Shown here: in pieces, positions 39,086 to 62,397 of the stretch
How the letters are laid out: every line of letters starts with the position of its first letter
How positions within the stretch are numbered: the first letter of the stretch is position 1
Source: Streptomyces sp. 549
GTDB lineage: Bacteria; Actinomycetota; Actinomycetes; Streptomycetales; Streptomycetaceae
DNA: 64,000 nucleotides
Assembly: GCF_030124175.1 (NCBI RefSeq)
Contig: NZ_JASKMT010000006.1
Span: 62,001 to 126,000 of the forward strand
Direction: 5' to 3'
Program-made: the position numbers and the translations under genes
The notes under the pieces: model-generated
Databases searched by the model: none
Told to the model about the DNA's origin: nothing
The model's input: the letters and a program-made list of their open reading frames with translations, nothing else

Positions 39086-39217
39086 GCGAAAGCTCTCCTC
39101 GCAGCGGGGGCAGGGTCTTTCCGCATCCATCATCGCGCACCGGCCGGGCGGGCGCCGGAGGCGGGGGACGGCGGGTGCGCTGGGCCGTTGTCGGTGCCGG
39201 ATGCCAGACTCTGCCGG

Positions 39218-40456
39218 GTGACGCACCACCCGCACCGCTCCCCCCGCAGCGACGCCGGGGCCGAGGCCCCCGACGGGCGGCGCACCGCCCTGCCCCGGCG
39301 GCTGGCCGCACTGCGCGGCGCCGGCCGCCCGGCCCGCCCGCTGGACGCGCGGGCCATCTCCGCGCTCGCCGCCAACCCCGGCTGCCGCCGCCGCGCCCTG
39401 CTGGACGGCGCCGGCGTCGACAAGGCCGCGCTCGCGCAGGCCCTCGGCGCTCCCGCGCCCTTCGGGCAGTCGCAGTTCGCGTTCGCCCGGGGCCACGCCT
39501 TCGAGTCCCGGCTGACGGCCGACAACGGCGCCGCTCTGGTCGCCCTGCTGCGGGAGCGCATGGGCGGTGACGTGCCCGAGCCGGAGGACGTCGCCGTCCC
39601 CGACCTGTCCGCCGACGGCCCTGCGGGCCGCGCCGAGCGCACCCGGCTCGCGCTGGCCGAGGCGGACCGCGCCGCCGCCGAGGGCCGGTGGACGCTGCTG
39701 GCCCACCCGATGCTGGAGCTGGACGTCGGCGGCTCCCCCGTCCACCTGGAGCCGGACGCGGTCACCGTGGCCCCCGACGGGCGCCGCACGGTGGTGGAGA
39801 TCAAGTCCTTCCCGATCCTGGACGGTTCCGCCGACCCGGCCAAGGTCGGTGCCGCCGCCCGGCAGGCGGCCGTCTACGCGCTGGCGCTCGCCCGGATGGG
39901 CGGTGCGGTGGACGAGCGGGCGCTGCTGGTGTGCCCGAAGGACTTCTCCAACCAGCCCACCGCCGCCGCCATGGACCTGCGCAGGCAGGTTGCCGCCGTG
40001 CGGCGGCAACTGGACCGGCTGACGCGGGTGGAGGAGATCGCCGGCGCCGTGCCCGACGGGGTCAGCTTCGACCCGGACCTGCCCGCGGGGGAGCTGGCCG
40101 CGGCCGTCGCGACGGTGCCCGCCGCGTACGACCCGCAGTGCCTGGCCGGCTGCGAACTCGCCTTCCACTGCCGCGGCCAGGCCAGGTCGGCCGGTGAGGT
40201 GACGACGCTGGGCCGCGGCGCACGCGGTGAGCTGGGCGGCCTCGCCACCGTCCGCAGCGCGCTGGACGCGGCCCGCGGCCTCGCGGGCGACCCGGCCGAC
40301 CCGGCGGTCACCGCCCTGCGGCGCGCGGCCCGCCTGCGGGCCGAAGCCCTCGCAGAGGCTCCGGGGCACGGCTGCGAGGCCGACGCCGGGGCCGGCGGGG
40401 TGCCCGGGGCGCGGGCGGCGGGCCCGGCGGTGCCCGAGGGGGCGGCATGGGGCTGA
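39218..40456 (+). CDS. RecB/Cas4-like PD-(D/E)XK nuclease with iron-sulfur-type cysteines
   Basis: The 412-residue protein (GTG at 39218; a TTG ten codons earlier is possible) has RecB-family motifs in order: RGHAFES (residues 91-97), D180 in LEPDAV, E194-x-K196 in VVEIKSF, and Q216-xxx-Y220 in RQAAVYAL. Cys56 near the N-terminus plus C308-x3-C312-x5-C318 form the split four-cysteine layout of iron-sulfur nucleases such as Cas4, AddB and Dna2. It should cut single-stranded DNA ends. It overlaps the next gene by 10 bases, starting a three-gene operon with an SF1 helicase. No cas1/cas2 is present. Confidence 0.88.
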
Positions 40457-41952
40457 TCACCACACTGGCCCGGATGGAGGCCGTGGAGACGGGGGCGGTC
40501 ACGCCGCTCACCACCGTCCGGCACCGGCATCTGTCCGACCGGCCACTGGTCCTGGTACCGCTCACCACGGCCGGTGAGGCCGGTGCGCCGCTGGGCGCGC
40601 TGGTCGGCACCGACCGGGACGCGCCGCGCCTGCTGACCGTGCCGCAGCCCCGCGACCGGGACCTGCGGTTCGCCTTCCTCGCCGCGCTCGCCGAGGAGGT
40701 GCTGCCGCACGTCGAGGCCGTGCTGGCCGCGACCGAGGCGGTGCCGCCGAAGGACAAGGACGCCGAGCCCGTCGAGCTGTGCCTGGACGCACCCCAGCTG
40801 CTGGTGCCCAACCGCGGCGGGATGGAGTTCGTGCGGCTGCTCGGGCGGTCGATGCGGTTCCGCCGCACCGCCGAGGAGGACCCGCAGGCCGCCCATCCGG
40901 CGCCGCCCCGGGTGCCGCTGCTGGGCCGCTGGCTTAGCCACTTCGGGGAGCGGGCCCGGGTGCCCGGCTCCTCACTGCTGCTCGCCATGACGGACCTGCT
41001 CGGCCGCCACTGGGCCACCGGCCAGAGCAGCCTGGAGGACCAGCACCTCGGGGCGCTGCTGGCCTGGTTCCGGCACCCCGGCGACGGCGCCGCGGCGGCC
41101 CTGCGGGCTGAGACCGAGCGGGACGCCGCGGGTCTGCTGCGCACCCCGCCGGCCGGTCCCGCCACCGACCCGGCCTTCGACAACAAGCGGCTGGCGCCCG
41201 CCGTCCAGCGCTACGACGCCAAGCTGCCGGGCGCCGAGGAGGAGGTCGCCGCGCTTCTCGCGTCTCAGCTGCGTCCGACCTGGGACGCCGTCTGGGAGGG
41301 CCTCGACCTGCTGCGGGCCCTCCCGCCCGGCCGGCGGGTGCCGACGCGCTGGGAGAGCGACCGCTGGTCGTGCACCGCGCACCGGGACCGGCTGCTCGCC
41401 GGCGAGCCGCCGCAGCCCCGGCGGGACGACGCGGTGACGGCGGCCCGCAAGCTGGCCGCCAGGGAGCGCGACCAGGCCCGGCTGGCGGCCCACGAAGCGC
41501 TCGACGACCCGCTGGTGATGGCCGCCCGGCGGCTGGCCGGCGAGGCGTTCACCGGTGAGGTCGCGGAGGTCGAGATGGCCTGGTCCGAGGGCAGGCGCAG
41601 GATGCCGCGCCCGCTGGTGACGGTCCGCACCGACGACCTCCCGCAGCTGTCGGAGGGCTCCGCTGTGTTCCGGGCGCTGCCGGAGGGGCGGGCGCAGACG
41701 GGCGAGTTCGCCGTTTCCCCGGGACCTGGACTGATCACCGTGCGGCTGACCGGCGGCATGGGCCGCGGCAAGGAGCCCGCGCCGGGTTCCGTGCCAGGGC
41801 CGGGCGAGCGGGTCTGCTTCACGCTGTTCGAGCACGCCCCGCGCGGCGGACCCGACCTGCCGGAGCCGGAGCACACCCCGTGGACGCACGGCGGCCCGCC
41901 CGGTACCGACGGCGCCGCACCCGACCCGGTCACCGAGGAGGACCTGCTGTGA
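40447..41952 (+). CDS. Unknown protein encoded between the nuclease and the helicase
   Basis: The 501-residue protein has no family I recognise. The N-terminal region (about 20-110) includes [19 protein letters not shown] and [19 protein letters not shown]. The middle is helical ([34 protein letters not shown]). A C-terminal beta-rich part (about 370-460; [13 protein letters not shown]...[27 protein letters not shown]) may be the barrel domain that SMUBP2/Upf1-type helicases insert, supplied in trans. That is inference. It overlaps the nuclease by 10 bases and the helicase by 4 bases, so the three proteins are probably made in step. Confidence 0.85.
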
Positions 41953-43322
41953 GTACGTCCCCCATCGCCCCGGCCGCCACCGCTCCCGGGGACGCGGGCG
42001 GCCCGCCGGACGACCCCGGCGCGGCTGCCGCCGCCGCGACGGCGGCGATCCTCGCCGACACGCTGGCCGGCACGGGACGCGGCGTGGTGGTGGACTCCCC
42101 GCCGGGCGCCGGCAAGTCCACGCTGGTGGTGCGGGCGGCCCGGGAGATCGCCGCGACCGGGCGTGCGCTGATGGTGGTGGCGCAGACCAACGCGCAGGTG
42201 GACGACCTGGTGGAGCGGCTGGCCGAGGCCGATCCGCAGCTGCCCGTCGGACGGCTGCACAGCAGCGACTACACGCCGCCGCAGCCGCGCCCCGACCGGC
42301 ACCCGCAGGTGCGCATGGCGGCGCGGGCCGGTGATCTGGCGGGCCTGGACGTGGTGGTGTCGACGGCCGCGAAGTGGGCGCACGTGAAGGACGTCGAGCC
42401 GTGGCGGCACGCCATCGTGGACGAGGCGTACCAGATGCGGTCGGACGCGCTTCTGGCGGTGGCGCGGCTGTTCGAGCACGCGCTGTTCGTCGGCGACCCG
42501 GGCCAGCTCGACCCGTTCAGCCAGGTGGGCACCGAGCAGTGGGCGGGCCTGTCGCACGATCCGTCGGCGAGCGCGGTGGCGGCGCTGCTGGCCCACAACC
42601 CGGGGCTGCCCCAGCACCGGCTGCCGGTGTCCTGGCGGCTGCCGGCCTCCGCTGCGCCCCTGGTGTCGCAGGCGTTCTACCCGTTCACGCCGTTCCGCAG
42701 CGGGACGGGCCCCGGCGACCGTGCCATGGGGTTCGCCGAGCGGTCGGACGGCTCGGCGCCGGACCGGGTGCTGGACGAGGCGGCGTCCTCCGGGTGGGGC
42801 CTGCTGGAGCTGCCCGCGCGGCACACCCCGCGGACCGACCCGGAGGCGGTGGCCGCCGTCGCGCGCGTCGTGCGCCGGGCGCTGGACCGCCGGGGCAGCA
42901 CGCTCAGCGAGCGGACGCCCGATCCGGCGCCGCTGACCGCCGACCGGATCGCGGTGGGCACCGCACACCGGGACCAGGCCGCCGCGATCCGTGAGGCGCT
43001 GGCCGCGCTTGGCGTGACGGGCGTGACGGTGGACACCGCGAACCGCCTCCAGGGCCGTGAGTACGACCTGACGGTGGTGCTGCACCCGCTGTCGGGCCGG
43101 CCGGACGCCACCGCGTTCCACCTGGAGACGGGCCGGCTGTGCGTGCTGACCTCCCGGCACCGGCACGCCTGCGTGGTGGTCTGCCGGGCGGGGGTGCCCG
43201 AGCTGCTGGACGAGCACCCCTCGACGGAACCGGTGCAGCTGGGGGTGTCGGTGCGCTTCCCCGACGGGTGGGAGGCCCATCAGGCGGTCCTGGCCGAGCT
43301 GGCGCGGCACCGGGTCACCTGA
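41949..43322 (+). CDS. SF1 (Upf1/Dna2-like) DNA helicase
   Basis: The 457-residue protein from a GTG at 41949 has Walker A SPPGAGKST (residues 50-58) and motif Ia VVAQTNAQVDDLVERL. It also carries motif II VDEAY (157-161), motif III GDPGQLDP (182-189), RLPVSWRLP (IV-like), motif V DTANRLQGREYDLTVV and motif VI LTSRHRHACVVV. The QG-REYD motif is typical of SF1B helicases such as Dna2 and SMUBP2. The accessory 1B/1C domains appear absent. GGAGG and a 4-base overlap couple it to the preceding gene. Confidence 0.9.
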   Translation: MSTSPIAPAATAPGDAGGPPDDPGAAAAAATAAILADTLAGTGRGVVVDSPPGAGKSTLVVRAAREIAATGRALMVVAQTNAQVDDLVERLAEADPQLPVGRLHSSDYTPPQPRPDRHPQVRMAARAGDLAGLDVVVSTAAKWAHVKDVEPWRHAIVDEAYQMRSDALLAVARLFEHALFVGDPGQLDPFSQVGTEQWAGLSHDPSASAVAALLAHNPGLPQHRLPVSWRLPASAAPLVSQAFYPFTPFRSGTGPGDRAMGFAERSDGSAPDRVLDEAASSGWGLLELPARHTPRTDPEAVAAVARVVRRALDRRGSTLSERTPDPAPLTADRIAVGTAHRDQAAAIREALAALGVTGVTVDTANRLQGREYDLTVVLHPLSGRPDATAFHLETGRLCVLTSRHRHACVVVCRAGVPELLDEHPSTEPVQLGVSVRFPDGWEAHQAVLAELARHRVT

Positions 43323-43403
43323 GCGGTCCGGACGCTTTTCGAATGCGTCCGGACCGGCCGGGGGACAATGGTGAGTGGCCCCAACGACGACGGAGGTATC
43401 TCC

Positions 43404-43766
43404 ATGCCCGAGCCGCATCCGGCTTCGGACGAGCGCGGCGGCGTCCCGCGCTTCTCGCGGCCCGTGCCGTTGACCTTCGAGCCTGCCGAGTCCACGGCCG
43501 ACCCCGAGCACTTCTTCGACCTTGAGTCGATCAGCGATCCGCGGGAGCTGCTGGCCCGCTCGACGGAGCTGGCGCTGGCGTTCCGCGCCGCAGCCGACCG
43601 GGCGATGGAGTTCCAGGCGATGGCCGCCGCGCAGCTGGCGGACCCCCGCCGGTTCGACCGGCTGCCGGACGCGGCGATCGCCGACCGGGCCCAGTGGACG
43701 GAGGACTACGTCCGCAAGATGGTGGAGTTCGGCGAGGAGCTGCTGCGCGAACGCACCCCGGAGTGA
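43404..43766 (+). CDS. Conserved small Streptomyces protein
   Basis: The 120-residue protein begins MPEPHPASDERGGVPRFSRPVPLTFEP and continues with an amphipathic helical part: DPRELLARSTELALAFRAAADRAMEFQAMAAAQLADP...DRLPDAAIADRAQWTEDYVRKMVEFGEELLRE. GGAGG precedes the ATG. It lies 81 bp after the helicase stop on the same strand and could be a fourth operon member. The function is unknown. Confidence 0.8.
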   Translation: MPEPHPASDERGGVPRFSRPVPLTFEPAESTADPEHFFDLESISDPRELLARSTELALAFRAAADRAMEFQAMAAAQLADPRRFDRLPDAAIADRAQWTEDYVRKMVEFGEELLRERTPE

Positions 43767-43920: not shown

Positions 43921-44508
43921 ATGAGCAGTGATCCCTCCACCTGTGTCACCCCGGCCGGCGCGGACTGGCTGGCCTCCGCGTGCCGCTTCCCGCGCAGCGT
44001 GCACGCCCTGTGGGCGGCGCGCCCCGGTGCCCCGAGCGTGCTGCCCTGCGGAACGGCCTTCGACGCGGTGAGCACACCGGTGCTCTTCGGACGCCGCATG
44101 CTGGACCGCTTATGGTCGGCGGGTCCGGGCAGCGGGCCGGTGGCCCTGCACCACGGCCGCATCTGGGTGTTCGCCGCCCCCGGCACGGCCGACCGGCTGC
44201 CCGCGCTGCTCGGCTGGGAGGAGTGGGGGCCGTCCCACAGGGGTGCAGAAACGATCCCCCCGCTGCTGTGCCACGGGCTGGGCGACGCGGTCACCGTGCC
44301 GGCCGTGCGTCTCACCGCCGAGCCGCCGCGGGCGTCCCGGTGGCTGGTGGCGCCCGACGTGCGGCACCCGTGGCTGCCGGACGCCGAGACGTTGCTCTGG
44401 GCCTGCCTGCGCGCGGTACGCGCTGGTCGGAGCCATGGCCGCCCGCTGTCGGTTTTTGCGTCCGGTGAGCCGGGTGCTAAGGTCTACGACGTCAGCAGGC
44501 GCCGCTAG
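43921..44508 (+). CDS. Prim-pol N-domain-like hypothetical protein with a TTA codon
   Basis: The 195-residue protein has the blocks WLASACRFPRSVHALWAARPGAPSVLPCGTAFDAVSTPVLFGRRMLD and RIWVFAAPGTADRLPALLGWEEWG. I recall these from Streptomyces proteins annotated as bifunctional DNA primase/polymerase-like. Leu-64 is encoded by TTA (44110-44112), so translation may depend on the bldA tRNA. Its last codons and TAG stop overlap the first 10 bases of a tRNA-Lys gene. Catalytic residues for primase activity are not evident. The gene at 36434 is a possible shorter relative. Confidence 0.75.
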   Translation: MSSDPSTCVTPAGADWLASACRFPRSVHALWAARPGAPSVLPCGTAFDAVSTPVLFGRRMLDRLWSAGPGSGPVALHHGRIWVFAAPGTADRLPALLGWEEWGPSHRGAETIPPLLCHGLGDAVTVPAVRLTAEPPRASRWLVAPDVRHPWLPDAETLLWACLRAVRAGRSHGRPLSVFASGEPGAKVYDVSRRR

Positions 44509-44688: not shown

Positions 44689-45927
44689 TCACCGCCGGGT
44701 GACGCGTACCGTCCAGGCGCCGGACTCCGCCCGCCGGACCGCGGTCACCGCGACGGCCCCGTCAGCGGCCAGCAGGGTCTCCCCCTCACCCAGGGGCGCG
44801 TCCGCCAGCTCCGGGTGCACCGAGCTGCCGTGGCAGGCACCGCTGCCGGGGTGCGCGTCGAGCACCTCGACCGGACCGCCGGCCGAGGCGGTGTCGCTGC
44901 GGACCCGGTAGACGAGCAGCCCGGCGGTGCACAGCGCGATGTCGTTGCCGACCGGCTCCCGCGCCTCGACCGCGATCACCTCGTGCGGCCCGGTGCGTAC
45001 GGCGAGCAGCCGGGTGTCGGCCCCGGGCCGGGCGGCCGGCTCGGCGAGCGGCTGAAGCGTGTGCCTGGTGGTGCCCGGTGCCTGCACGCAGTCCACGCGG
45101 GCGTCGTCCAGCCAGCCCATCTTCCACTTGTGCCAGCCGAACGGGTCCGGCGCGAGGCCGAACTGGCTGCCCATCAGGTCCCAGTCGCCGACGTGGGTGT
45201 CCCAGTCGCCCTTGCCGTCCTCGGGGCGGTTGTACAGGTCGGGCAGGTCGAAGACGTGCCCGGTCTCGTGCGCGAGCACGTTGCGGTCTGCGGGGTACTG
45301 CTCGAAGACGGTGACGACCCGCCGCAGCTCGGTGCCGTCCTTCTTCACCGGCTGGTGGAAGTTGACGACCTTCGTCGCGTCGGAGTCCACGCCGGGCGCG
45401 TGCGGGTCGGCGACGAGGTAGACGACGTCGTAGCGGCTGAAGTCCACCTCCGGGTCGGCGGCGGCCAGCGCGTCGTCGACGAACGCGGAGCGCATGCCGG
45501 CGTTCCAGTCCCGCGCTATGTCGTAGGAACGCGACGCGGAGGGCATCTCGATCCACTCGTCCAGCGGGTGCGCCCGCAGGTCGAGCCGCCCGTAGGAGGC
45601 ACTGCGGAAGAAGTCCGCGGTGGCCGGGAAGTGGTCGTCGGCGAGTTGCGCGGGCGTGGTCAGGGGGCGCGAGTCGGGGAAGGACAGGAAGACCATGACG
45701 GCGTCGACCGTCTTCCGCGGACGCACGTACGCGTCGTTCCAGGTGTCGAGGCCGAGGGAGTGATGGGCGTCCGTGCGCGGGAGGGCGCACGGTGGCGCGG
45801 GCTCGGCGAGGACCGGCCCTGCCATCGAGGTGGTGCCGATCACCGCCACGAGCGCGGTGAGCACCGAGGCCGGACGGCGCATCCGCCACAGGAGCGACTC
45901 CTCCTGCGGTAGGCGCACAGGGCTCAC
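44689..45927 (-). CDS. Secreted M6-family metalloprotease
   Basis: The 412-residue protein has an N-terminal signal peptide (MRRPASVLTALVAVIGTTSMAGPVLAEPAPP, cleavage near AEP). Its catalytic domain contains the zinc site HETGHVFDLPDLYN and the downstream GDWDLMGSQFG met-turn-like segment typical of immune inhibitor A-type peptidases. It would degrade extracellular proteins. It is divergent from the cdgA-like gene. The BldD box in the 262-bp shared upstream region could affect it as well. Confidence 0.9.
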   Translation of the reverse strand: MSPVRLPQEESLLWRMRRPASVLTALVAVIGTTSMAGPVLAEPAPPCALPRTDAHHSLGLDTWNDAYVRPRKTVDAVMVFLSFPDSRPLTTPAQLADDHFPATADFFRSASYGRLDLRAHPLDEWIEMPSASRSYDIARDWNAGMRSAFVDDALAAADPEVDFSRYDVVYLVADPHAPGVDSDATKVVNFHQPVKKDGTELRRVVTVFEQYPADRNVLAHETGHVFDLPDLYNRPEDGKGDWDTHVGDWDLMGSQFGLAPDPFGWHKWKMGWLDDARVDCVQAPGTTRHTLQPLAEPAARPGADTRLLAVRTGPHEVIAVEAREPVGNDIALCTAGLLVYRVRSDTASAGGPVEVLDAHPGSGACHGSSVHPELADAPLGEGETLLAADGAVAVTAVRRAESGAWTVRVTRR

Positions 45928-46189: not shown

Positions 46190-47989
46190 GTGAACGGAAT
46201 TCTCGACAGTCAGGGCAGCGCCCCCGATCGCCCCGACACCGCCGGAAAGGCTGCTCAACGCGTTACGGACGGTAGTCATGCGGCGCTTCGCTCCCCTGGG
46301 ACCGCTGTTGAACCAGGGGTTTTTGCCGCGGCATTCAACACCGCACGGCAGGCGATGGCCGTCGTCGACGAGGAGGGCCGCGTCGTCGCCGCCAACGCGG
46401 CGCTCGCCGCCCTGCTGAGCACCGTGCCGGAACGGCTCGAAGGGCTGCCCGCAGCCGAACTGCCGGGCCTCTCCCTGGACGACCACGCACGCACCGCCTG
46501 CCGAGCGGTGCTGCGCGGTGAACGGGACCGGATGTGCTGCACCCGCCGGCTCAAGCACGCGGACGGCCACCCGCTGTGGGTGGAGATCACCCTGGTGCCC
46601 GCCGACCGGCCGCACGGTGCCGCCCTGCTGACCGTCGCCGACGTCAGCGAGCGCCGCGACCTCCAGGACCGGCTGCGCCACCTGCAGATGCACGACCCGG
46701 TCACCCGCCTGCCGAACCGCGCCCTGTTCTTCGAGCGGCTGGCCGGCGCGCTCAACGACAGCGCCACCGGCCGCGTCGGCCTGTGCTACCTCGACCTCGA
46801 CGGCTTCAAGGCCGTCAACGACACACTCGGGCACCGCATCGGCGACCTGCTCCTGGACGCGGTGGCCCGCCGCCTGGTGCGCTGCGCGGCCGGCTCCCCC
46901 TCCCCCGGCGGCCACCTGGTGGCGCGGCTCGGGGGCGACGAGTTCGCGCTGCTGGTGGAGGCGTCCACCGGCACCGACCAGCTCAGCGCGCTCGCCACCG
47001 AGCTGGGAGCCGAGCTGCGGCGGCCCTTCGACGTGAGCGGCCGGCGGATCACCGTCTCGGCCAGCATCGGCGTCGTCGAACGGATCGCGGACGGCACCAC
47101 CGCCACCGAGCTGATGCAGGCCGCCGACACCACGCTCTACTGGGCAAAGGCCGACGGCAAGGACCGCTGGACGCTGTTCGACCCCGAACGCAACGCCCAC
47201 CGCATCACCCGGCAGTCGCTGTCGAGCACGCTGCGCCCGGCCGTCGAACGCGGTGAGTTCATCCTGGAGTTCCAGCCGATCGTCGGACTGGCCGACGAGG
47301 CGCTGCGCGGGGTCGAGGCGCTGGTGCGCTGGCGGCACCCGCAGTTCGGCACGCTGGGCCCCGACCGCTTCATCGGCCTCGCCGAGGAGAACGGCGCGAT
47401 CGTGCCGCTCGGCCGCTGGGTGCTCGCCGAGTCCTGCCGCCAGGCCCGCCGCTGGCAGCAGCAGACCTCGGGGCCGCCGCTGTTCGTCTCCGTCAACGTG
47501 GCGGTGCGGCAGGTGTGGGACTCCGACCTGGTGGCGGACGTGGCCGGCATCCTGGCCGAGACCGGGCTGCCCGCGGGACTGCTGCAACTGGAGCTGACCG
47601 AGTCGGCGGTGATGGGGTCCTCCGGCCGCCCGCTGCAGGCACTGCAGGCGCTGTCGGACATGGGGGTGCGCATCGCCATCGACGACTTCGGCACCGGCTA
47701 CTCCAACCTGGCCTACCTCAGCCGGCTGCCGGTGCGGGCGCTGAAGCTGGACGGCACCTTCGTGCGTGCCTTCCGCACCGCCCGGCACCTCAACCCGGCC
47801 GACGAGACCATCGTCACCTCGCTGGTGGACCTCGCGCACAAGCTCGGCCTGACCGTCACCGCCGAGTGCGTCGAGGGGCCCGCCCAGGCGGAACGGCTGC
47901 GGCGCATCGGCTGCGACACCGGCCAGGGCTGGCACTACTCCAAGCCGGTGGCGGCGGAACGCATCTCCCAGCTGCTCGGCAGCGGCTGA
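46190..47989 (+). CDS. cdgA: GGDEF-EAL c-di-GMP metabolising protein (CdgA-like)
   Basis: The 599-residue protein has a PAS domain (about residues 45-155), a GGDEF domain with intact GGDEF at 248-252 (LARLGGDEFALL context), and an EAL domain with EAL at 376-378 (GVEALVRWRHP) and IDDFGTGYSNL at 497-508. Both catalytic motifs look intact, so it could make and/or break c-di-GMP, the BldD ligand. Domain order and the BldD box upstream match Streptomyces CdgA. The GTG at 46190 has GGGAG nearby. It is soluble with no membrane segments. Confidence 0.9.
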   Translation: MNGILDSQGSAPDRPDTAGKAAQRVTDGSHAALRSPGTAVEPGVFAAAFNTARQAMAVVDEEGRVVAANAALAALLSTVPERLEGLPAAELPGLSLDDHARTACRAVLRGERDRMCCTRRLKHADGHPLWVEITLVPADRPHGAALLTVADVSERRDLQDRLRHLQMHDPVTRLPNRALFFERLAGALNDSATGRVGLCYLDLDGFKAVNDTLGHRIGDLLLDAVARRLVRCAAGSPSPGGHLVARLGGDEFALLVEASTGTDQLSALATELGAELRRPFDVSGRRITVSASIGVVERIADGTTATELMQAADTTLYWAKADGKDRWTLFDPERNAHRITRQSLSSTLRPAVERGEFILEFQPIVGLADEALRGVEALVRWRHPQFGTLGPDRFIGLAEENGAIVPLGRWVLAESCRQARRWQQQTSGPPLFVSVNVAVRQVWDSDLVADVAGILAETGLPAGLLQLELTESAVMGSSGRPLQALQALSDMGVRIAIDDFGTGYSNLAYLSRLPVRALKLDGTFVRAFRTARHLNPADETIVTSLVDLAHKLGLTVTAECVEGPAQAERLRRIGCDTGQGWHYSKPVAAERISQLLGSG

Positions 47990-61663: not shown

Positions 61664-62397
61664 ATGTCCGACCTGGACGACCTGGCGGACCGTCTGGCCA
61701 GGACCCGGTGGACCGGTGAGCTGCCCGGTGTGGGCGACGCCTACGGCGTGCCGCTGGACCGGGTGCGCGACCTCACCGCCTACTGGCGGGACGGCTTCGT
61801 CTGGCGGCACTGGGAGGCGCGGCTCAACGCCCACCCGCAGTTCACCACCACGATCGACGGTTGGAACATCCACTTCCTGCACGTGCGTTCCGCCGAGCCG
61901 GACGCGATGCCGCTGGTCCTCACCCACGGCTGGCCGATGTCGGTAGTGGAGTTCCTCGACGTGATCGGCCCGCTCACCGACCCGGCAGCGCACGGCGGCG
62001 ACCCGGCCGACGCCTTCCACCTGGTGATCCCGTCGCTGGGCGAAGCTGATGCCGGCTCGGCCACACCCGCTACGGCGCGCACGGCGTGGACTGGGGATCG
62101 TTCCTGACCGGCGTGCTCGGCGAGACCGTGCCGGAGGGGCTGATCGGACTGCACCTGACCATGCCGTTCGCCGGCCCGCCCGCCGAGCAGGTCGCGCTCG
62201 ACGAACGCGACCTGGCGGGGCTGGCCGCGCTGAACGAGTTCCCCGAGGACGCCCGCAGGCCCCGCGCCTGGTGCGAGCAGCGGTTCACCGACCTGCGCCG
62301 GTGGACCGACCACGAGCACGGCGGCCACTTCCCCGCCCTGAAGCAGCCCGAAGTGCTGGTGTCCGAGCTGCGCTCGTTCTTCGCCGACCTGCGCTGA
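61664..62397 (+). pseudogene. Epoxide hydrolase remnant with frameshift and internal deletions
   Basis: From the ATG at 61664 the frame encodes the epoxide-hydrolase N-terminal domain ([38 protein letters not shown]) and the oxyanion-hole motif [19 protein letters not shown]. It then loses homology after VIPSL and stops at 62107. A second frame resumes at [15 protein letters not shown] (the nucleophile-Asp region) and runs through LIGLHLTMPFAGPP to HGGHFPALKQPEVLVSELRSFF at the C-terminus. At least two internal segments (around residue 130 and most of the cap domain) are missing, and a frameshift separates the parts. Confidence 0.85.

Follow-up and report, generated by a model that had tools for sequence, protein, structure and literature searches.

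What kind of machine is encoded by three overlapping genes of Streptomyces sp. 549, predicted to specify a nuclease, a protein of no known family and a helicase? The genes lie within a window (the whole stretch of DNA analysed) of 64,000 nucleotides, positions 62,001 to 126,000 of contig NZ_JASKMT010000006.1, forward strand, from a host assembly of 6.0 Mb in 72 contigs (G000). The answer we favour, with a probability of about 0.6, is that the trio forms one unit, a Dna2-type nuclease-helicase split into subunits in the domain order of Dna2, which would process DNA ends or forks and whose divergent copies would have been recruited to defence. The three open reading frames (ORFs) run end to end on the plus strand of the window:

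39218-40456, plus strand: nuclease subunit, RecB/Cas4-like PD-(D/E)xK, 412 amino acids, GTG start (TTG at 39188 is an alternative).
40447-41952, plus strand: middle subunit, without a known family, 501 amino acids, ATG start.
41949-43322, plus strand: helicase subunit, UPF1/Dna2-like superfamily 1B (SF1B), RecA domains 1A and 2A only, 457 amino acids, GTG start.

A sequence-only reading of this DNA had reported these ORFs and their overlaps of 10 bp (nuclease/middle) and 4 bp (middle/helicase), and both were confirmed. The overlaps are also kept in relatives, with 10 bp in 63 of 78 scored joints at the first position and 4 bp in at least 49 at the second. Codon usage classed the trio ORFs as coding and the competing frames as not, using a model partly trained on this gene family.

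Separate profile searches with the middle, helicase and nuclease proteins across 396 genomes from 236 genera of Actinomycetota matched the same 16 genomes (five genera) with all three profiles, and no genome with only one or two. Since 12 of the 16 belong to one genus, the independent evidence is the coincidence of the five genera. The trio was near-universal in the sampled Streptomyces and patchy in other actinobacteria, and of 76 long Streptomyces loci, 74 had its genes side by side in the same order, the other two lying at contig ends. Whole trios were also found in other families (L102-L108, L130 and L158), as divergent second copies in Streptomyces (L109, L110, L131 and L132) and in another class (L133), where the order is kept, both joints overlap by 4 bp and the nuclease, middle and helicase proteins are 28%, 25% and 34% identical; the distant trios L187-L189 carry 4-bp overlaps too. 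The genes therefore do not rarely co-occur outside close relatives, the outcome in which the sequence-only reading had seen the failure of its system idea. Every intact locus read has three separate genes, and the protein trees had 16 of 17, 13 of 17 and 17 of 17 well-supported splits in common, with distance correlations of r 0.98-0.99. Because of this obligate co-occurrence, the fixed order and overlaps and the congruent trees, there is strong comparative evidence that the trio works as a single functional unit whose genes are passed on together, by descent and by transfer.

Short-pattern scans, which can miss relatives, found none for the middle protein among 50,697 phage records and none for any trio protein in viral contigs, and there is therefore no evidence for a phage origin. 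Plasmids gave only three records. A further hit, L134, was not confirmed.

Some loci showed peculiarities of their own. The middle gene of one distant trio (L189:1304-2866, genome G575) is broken by in-frame stops, possibly through decay or an assembly error. In L133 the trio is followed by an overlapping gene for a 564-amino-acid protein (L133:2559-4253) with an RNase_H_2 domain and a weak PD-(D/E)xK match, which may be a fourth member in that class. In Streptomyces olivoreticuli a transposase-like ORF (L036:11650-13005, IS110-like by eye) sits between the middle and helicase genes, and the helicase is intact.

What is the first subunit? The catalytic residues and cysteines named by the sequence-only reading lie where it had placed them:

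39383-39385, plus strand: Cys56, first predicted iron-sulfur (Fe-S) ligand, invariant in both alignments described below.
39755-39757, plus strand: Asp180, nuclease motif II, invariant in both alignments.
39797-39805, plus strand: E194-x-K196, nuclease motif III, without variation in 38 Streptomyces sequences and replaced by L-x-R in the L110/L131 lineage only.
39863-39877, plus strand: Q216-xxx-Y220, nuclease motif IV, invariant in both alignments.
40139-40171, plus strand: C308-x3-C312-x5-C318, remaining predicted Fe-S ligands, invariant in both alignments.

Numbered from 39218, D180, E194, K196, Q216, Y220, C56, C308, C312 and C318 were all invariant in the 38 Streptomyces sequences, and all except E194 and K196 were so across 14 more divergent nucleases, one row of which (the L110/L131 second-copy lineage) has these two replaced. 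Sequence profiles gave only weak Cas4 matches (E 0.008-0.12), and TIGR00372 (Cas4) scored 12.1 bits, short of its cut-off of 65. The AlphaFold2 model (mean predicted local distance difference test, pLDDT, 79, with about 23 low-confidence residues before the first helix) matched Cas4 at Z 11.5 over 200 residues, followed by the AdnA nuclease domain (9.0), Exo5 (8.9), RecE (8.7), MGME1 (8.6) and Dna2 (7.5). Judged by motifs and modelled fold, the protein is a RecB/Cas4-type nuclease, as the sequence-only reading had it, with Fe-S-type cysteines that would bind a cluster. The PDB matches of the nuclease profile were designed repeat proteins and were dismissed as compositional.

The second-copy nucleases at L110:4330-5493 and L131:6017-7135 read L-x-R (VVLIRSF) in place of E194-x-K196 and are possibly nuclease-dead. 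The pPIWI-RE island that adjoins both loci has a PD-(D/E)xK protein of its own.

The helicase subunit scored above the cut-off for AAA_11 and AAA_12 (Pfam), and its motifs are all kept down to 33% identity:

42099-42119, plus strand: Walker A, PPGAGKS.
42420-42437, plus strand: motif II, DEAYQM.
42492-42506, plus strand: motif III, GDPGQ.
43050-43061, plus strand: motif V, QGRE.
43152-43166, plus strand: motif VI, SRHRH.

A profile of 14 divergent members placed SMUBP-2 and Dna2 first among PDB sequences, both at E around 5e-13 (SMUBP-2 4.6e-13), bearing out the earlier assignment to SF1B, and TIGR00376 (IGHMBP2 helicase) reached 35.3 bits against a cut-off of 348.9. The longest match was to Dna2, with profile positions 25-364 aligned to Dna2 residues 642-983 (340 positions, E 5e-13). 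Dna2 and the UPF1-like helicases related to it have a stalk and a barrel ahead of RecA1 or inserted into it (PMC4716839, PMC5452015). Only 24 profile positions precede the aligned part here, leaving no room for a stalk and barrel in the helicase subunit.

Where, then, could the barrel be? The AlphaFold2 model of the middle protein (pLDDT 76, predicted template modelling score 0.62) starts with an alpha/beta part, followed by a helical middle, long helices and, at the C-terminus, a beta barrel, which lies at the end of the protein encoded directly upstream of the helicase RecA1:

41530-41832, plus strand: beta barrel at residues 362-462 of the middle subunit, on VIA-align matches a candidate for a detached helicase 1B barrel.

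VIA-align ranked senataxin first for this barrel (Z 8.3, 86 residues, root-mean-square deviation 3.0), with Sen1 at 7.7, IGHMBP2 at 7.4 and UPF1 at 7.2, each match range fitting the 1B barrel. The ranking decides nothing by itself, because ferredoxin-reductase-type barrels, which are unrelated, reach 7.9. The context makes the match notable: senataxin (SETX), Sen1, IGHMBP2 and UPF1 are kin of the adjoining helicase subunit, which lacks that barrel. The proposal that the C-terminal barrel stands in for the helicase accessory barrel, made in the sequence-only reading from the beta-rich C-terminus, has structural support from the model and not proof: it gained a structural match, and it is tied by unrelated barrels and finds no sequence signal. 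Searches of Pfam, NCBIfam, PADLOC and PDB sequences (the last with the middle profile) found nothing for the middle protein itself, which did not turn out to be a known unrelated enzyme, as the earlier reading had allowed it might.

Should the barrel matches be read as a sign that the unit acts on RNA or R-loops in the manner of UPF1 and senataxin, and not on DNA ends? SETX, Sen1, IGHMBP2 and UPF1 are RNA helicases, and the UPF1-like branch includes RNA enzymes (PMC5452015). We consider this very unlikely, however, as the nuclease fold is that of the DNA nucleases Cas4, AdnA, Exo5, MGME1 and Dna2, the longest helicase match is Dna2, and SbcCD and Wadjet, which neighbour the second copies, act on DNA.

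Several observations weigh against the split-Dna2 reading, beginning with the ferredoxin-reductase-type barrels already mentioned. Foldseek with the middle protein model returned nothing at E<=0.001, and when the middle protein was compared by hhalign with six helicases that bear a barrel or are related, no probability reached 1%, the templates being single sequences or shallow alignments. A Pfam scan of 15 middle family members down to E 10 found no 1B family, and the first ~360 residues of this protein are unassigned. In one genome (G243) the helicase gene is present about 37 kb from the other two; nuclease activity would not always be required, because E194 and K196 are lost in one second-copy lineage; and no recognised repair or defence gene is among the ten tested neighbours of the window copy.

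Scanning the family also gave a weak TOBE_2 match (E 0.023) in two of the 15 members, and a Caa3_CtaG match to the middle protein (Pfam, E 0.11) was set aside as a chance match. No protein fusing the middle and helicase parts was found; helicases of 776-782 amino acids occur in other genomes, and hhalign does not relate their N-terminal parts to the middle protein.

With the barrel similarity inside the range of unrelated folds and lacking sequence support, the middle protein could instead be a regulator or DNA-binding adaptor unrelated to the barrel, in a looser pathway, its helicase needing no 1B domain just as the RecD2 branch of SF1B has neither barrel nor stalk (PMC4716839). We regard this as an improbable, if reasonable, account: Dna2 and SMUBP-2, to which the helicase profile aligns, belong to the branch equipped with barrel and stalk, and a tight complex is suggested by genes that always occur together and overlap and by protein trees that agree.

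Is the unit a housekeeping machine or a defence system? The genes around the window copy are kept in 49-53 of 54 complete Streptomyces loci, and this copy is therefore a core, vertically inherited locus. It lacks both UpX, a gene described next, and an adjacent SbcCD. The accessory copies are placed differently. On two Streptomyces plasmids (L157 and L159) a trio ~41% identical, whose nuclease and middle proteins are annotated as hypothetical, is preceded by a 281-amino-acid gene, UpX (P0005), which has no Pfam family and whose product is a possible coiled coil, and is flanked by SbcC/SbcD on one side and Wadjet type I jetABCD on the other (L157:2343-18676). The order UpX-nuclease-middle-helicase recurs in L106-L110, L130-L132 and L158, and SbcCD is divergent and adjacent in L106-L109, L132, L157 and L159. 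Wadjet type II follows the trio in L106 and L109 and lies beyond SbcCD in L132, and the pPIWI-RE island of L110 and L131 is accompanied in L131 by Hma genes downstream. Since L110/L131 and L106-L109/L157/L159 are clades, the number of independent associations is a few and not a dozen. That different lineages have different defence systems as neighbours supports a real link to defence, taken without a background rate for Streptomyces.

This link, together with UpX and the frequent SbcCD that second copies bring and the patchy spread outside Streptomyces, would also fit a trio that is primarily an anti-phage or anti-plasmid defence, the islands being its native setting and the Streptomyces core copy a defence system that became fixed. 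We think this unlikely. Unlike typical defence genes, the Streptomyces copy is syntenic and near-universal in its genus and, as noted, comes without UpX and adjacent SbcCD; the middle protein has no PADLOC match; and in the flanks read around L102-L105, L130, L133 and L158, where most genes were not profiled, no defence neighbour was recognised.

How might a split Dna2-type machine work? Its parts, in order, would be an Fe-S nuclease, a scaffold bearing stalk and barrel, and an SF1B motor formed by the RecA pair. On single strands, motors of this SF1B branch travel 5'->3' (PMC4716839, PMC5452015), and Dna2 threads single-stranded DNA through a tunnel formed by helicase, barrel and Fe-S-stapled nuclease (PMC4716839). 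By analogy, a machine of three chains would be built up on resected ends or at forks, its motor moving 5'->3' along single-stranded DNA at a fork or broken end. Coupling of motor to nuclease would fall to the middle subunit, which would also provide the accessory barrel absent from the motor. With the cysteine-bound cluster closing its channel, the nuclease would cleave the strand threaded into it, resulting in DNA end resection. Complex formation, polarity, the role of the barrel, substrate and pathway are what we infer here. The Streptomyces core copy would serve a vertically kept function, most likely end or fork processing, and the divergent copies in defence islands would degrade ends created or opened by SbcCD (Mre11-Rad50) and by DNA cutters such as Wadjet. 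As Wadjet cleaves DNA that is a closed circle and leaves linear DNA alone (PMC10586767), an adjoining end-degrader with Mre11-Rad50 would, hypothetically, finish the job. Going further, and only tentatively, a bacterial Dna2 of three obligate subunits, with its UPF1-type barrel on a scaffold, might constitute, with SbcCD, a prokaryotic counterpart of the MRN-Dna2 resection pathway of eukaryotes that, in defence islands, destroys DNA opened by Wadjet or similar systems.

Streptomyces keep plastic linear chromosomes by relying on break processing, and a near-universal, unnamed nuclease-helicase would give them an additional resection machine beside AdnAB. Save for generic helicase domains, none of Pfam, NCBIfam and PADLOC has a curated family for the trio proteins. 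If the barrel is truly detached, the role of the accessory barrel in Dna2/UPF1-type helicases could be studied by adding or removing a subunit, and the copies linked to SbcCD and Wadjet suggest a two-step defence, cut then degrade, and a bacterial parallel to MRN plus Dna2.

Around the window trio, a divergent histidine phosphatase gene lies upstream, and a conserved Streptomyces gene of 132 amino acids without a Pfam family (43368-43766) lies just 3' and accompanies the trio in 53 of the 54 complete loci. Beyond it are two conserved genes without Pfam matches, 43921-44508 (53 of 54 loci) and 44689-45918 (50 of 54), and a gene for a PAS-GGDEF-EAL cyclic-di-GMP protein, 46355-47989, syntenic with the trio in 50 of 54. 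Among ten neighbouring ORFs (34.1-51.0 kb) there were no Cas (including cas1/cas2), toxin or methylase domains, in agreement with the earlier remark that none is nearby.

How does the trio compare with known systems? The sequence-only reading knew of no description of it as a system, and none was found in open-access papers or the 2023 PADLOC copy, in which a recent description may be missed; PADLOC, including Mokosh, gave no full-length matches, only helicase-core (MkoA 31.7 bits, MkoC 30.5) and weak Cas4 ones. Helicase-nuclease end processing is common to AddAB, AdnAB and RecBCD, and the AddB and AdnA nuclease domains are related to the trio nuclease. Their motors are SF1A (UvrD-like), with the nuclease fused to a helicase-like chain, whereas the trio motor is SF1B (AAA_11/AAA_12, Dna2 and SMUBP-2 matches) and has its own gene. 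The archaeal Mre11-Rad50-HerA-NurA loci, where Mre11-Rad50 genes stand beside a helicase-nuclease pair, can be likened in layout to the SbcCD-linked second copies; HerA, a hexameric ATPase of the HerA/FtsK type, and NurA, with its RNase H-like fold, are not homologous to the trio proteins. Cas4, including solo and mobile genetic element Cas4, has the fold and motifs in common with the trio nuclease, which differs in falling far below the Cas4 cut-off, in lacking cas1/cas2 and in having fixed partner genes; the available passages of a Cas4 survey link Cas4-like nucleases to UvrD and COG1205 helicases and do not contain this trio (PMC5704561). IGHMBP2/SMUBP-2 and UPF1 have the same SF1B RecA pair, but the trio helicase lacks stalk and barrel and has an associated nuclease.

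Eukaryotic Dna2, like the trio, combines a RecB/Cas4-type nuclease bearing four Fe-S-type cysteines with a UPF1-like SF1B helicase, and its barrel is held by a two-helix stalk between the two (PMC4716839). Its domain order, nuclease, barrel/stalk, helicase, is the gene order of the trio, given a barrel in the middle subunit. Dna2 is one fused chain, whereas the trio comprises three separate polypeptides, with a nuclease that has the Cys spacing C-x3-C-x5-C and no N-terminal OB domain, and a middle subunit that has ~360 unassigned residues and a barrel that is a candidate only. On the sequences and models compared here, the trio is most likely Dna2-type machinery, so far undescribed in the literature searched, in a split, three-subunit form.

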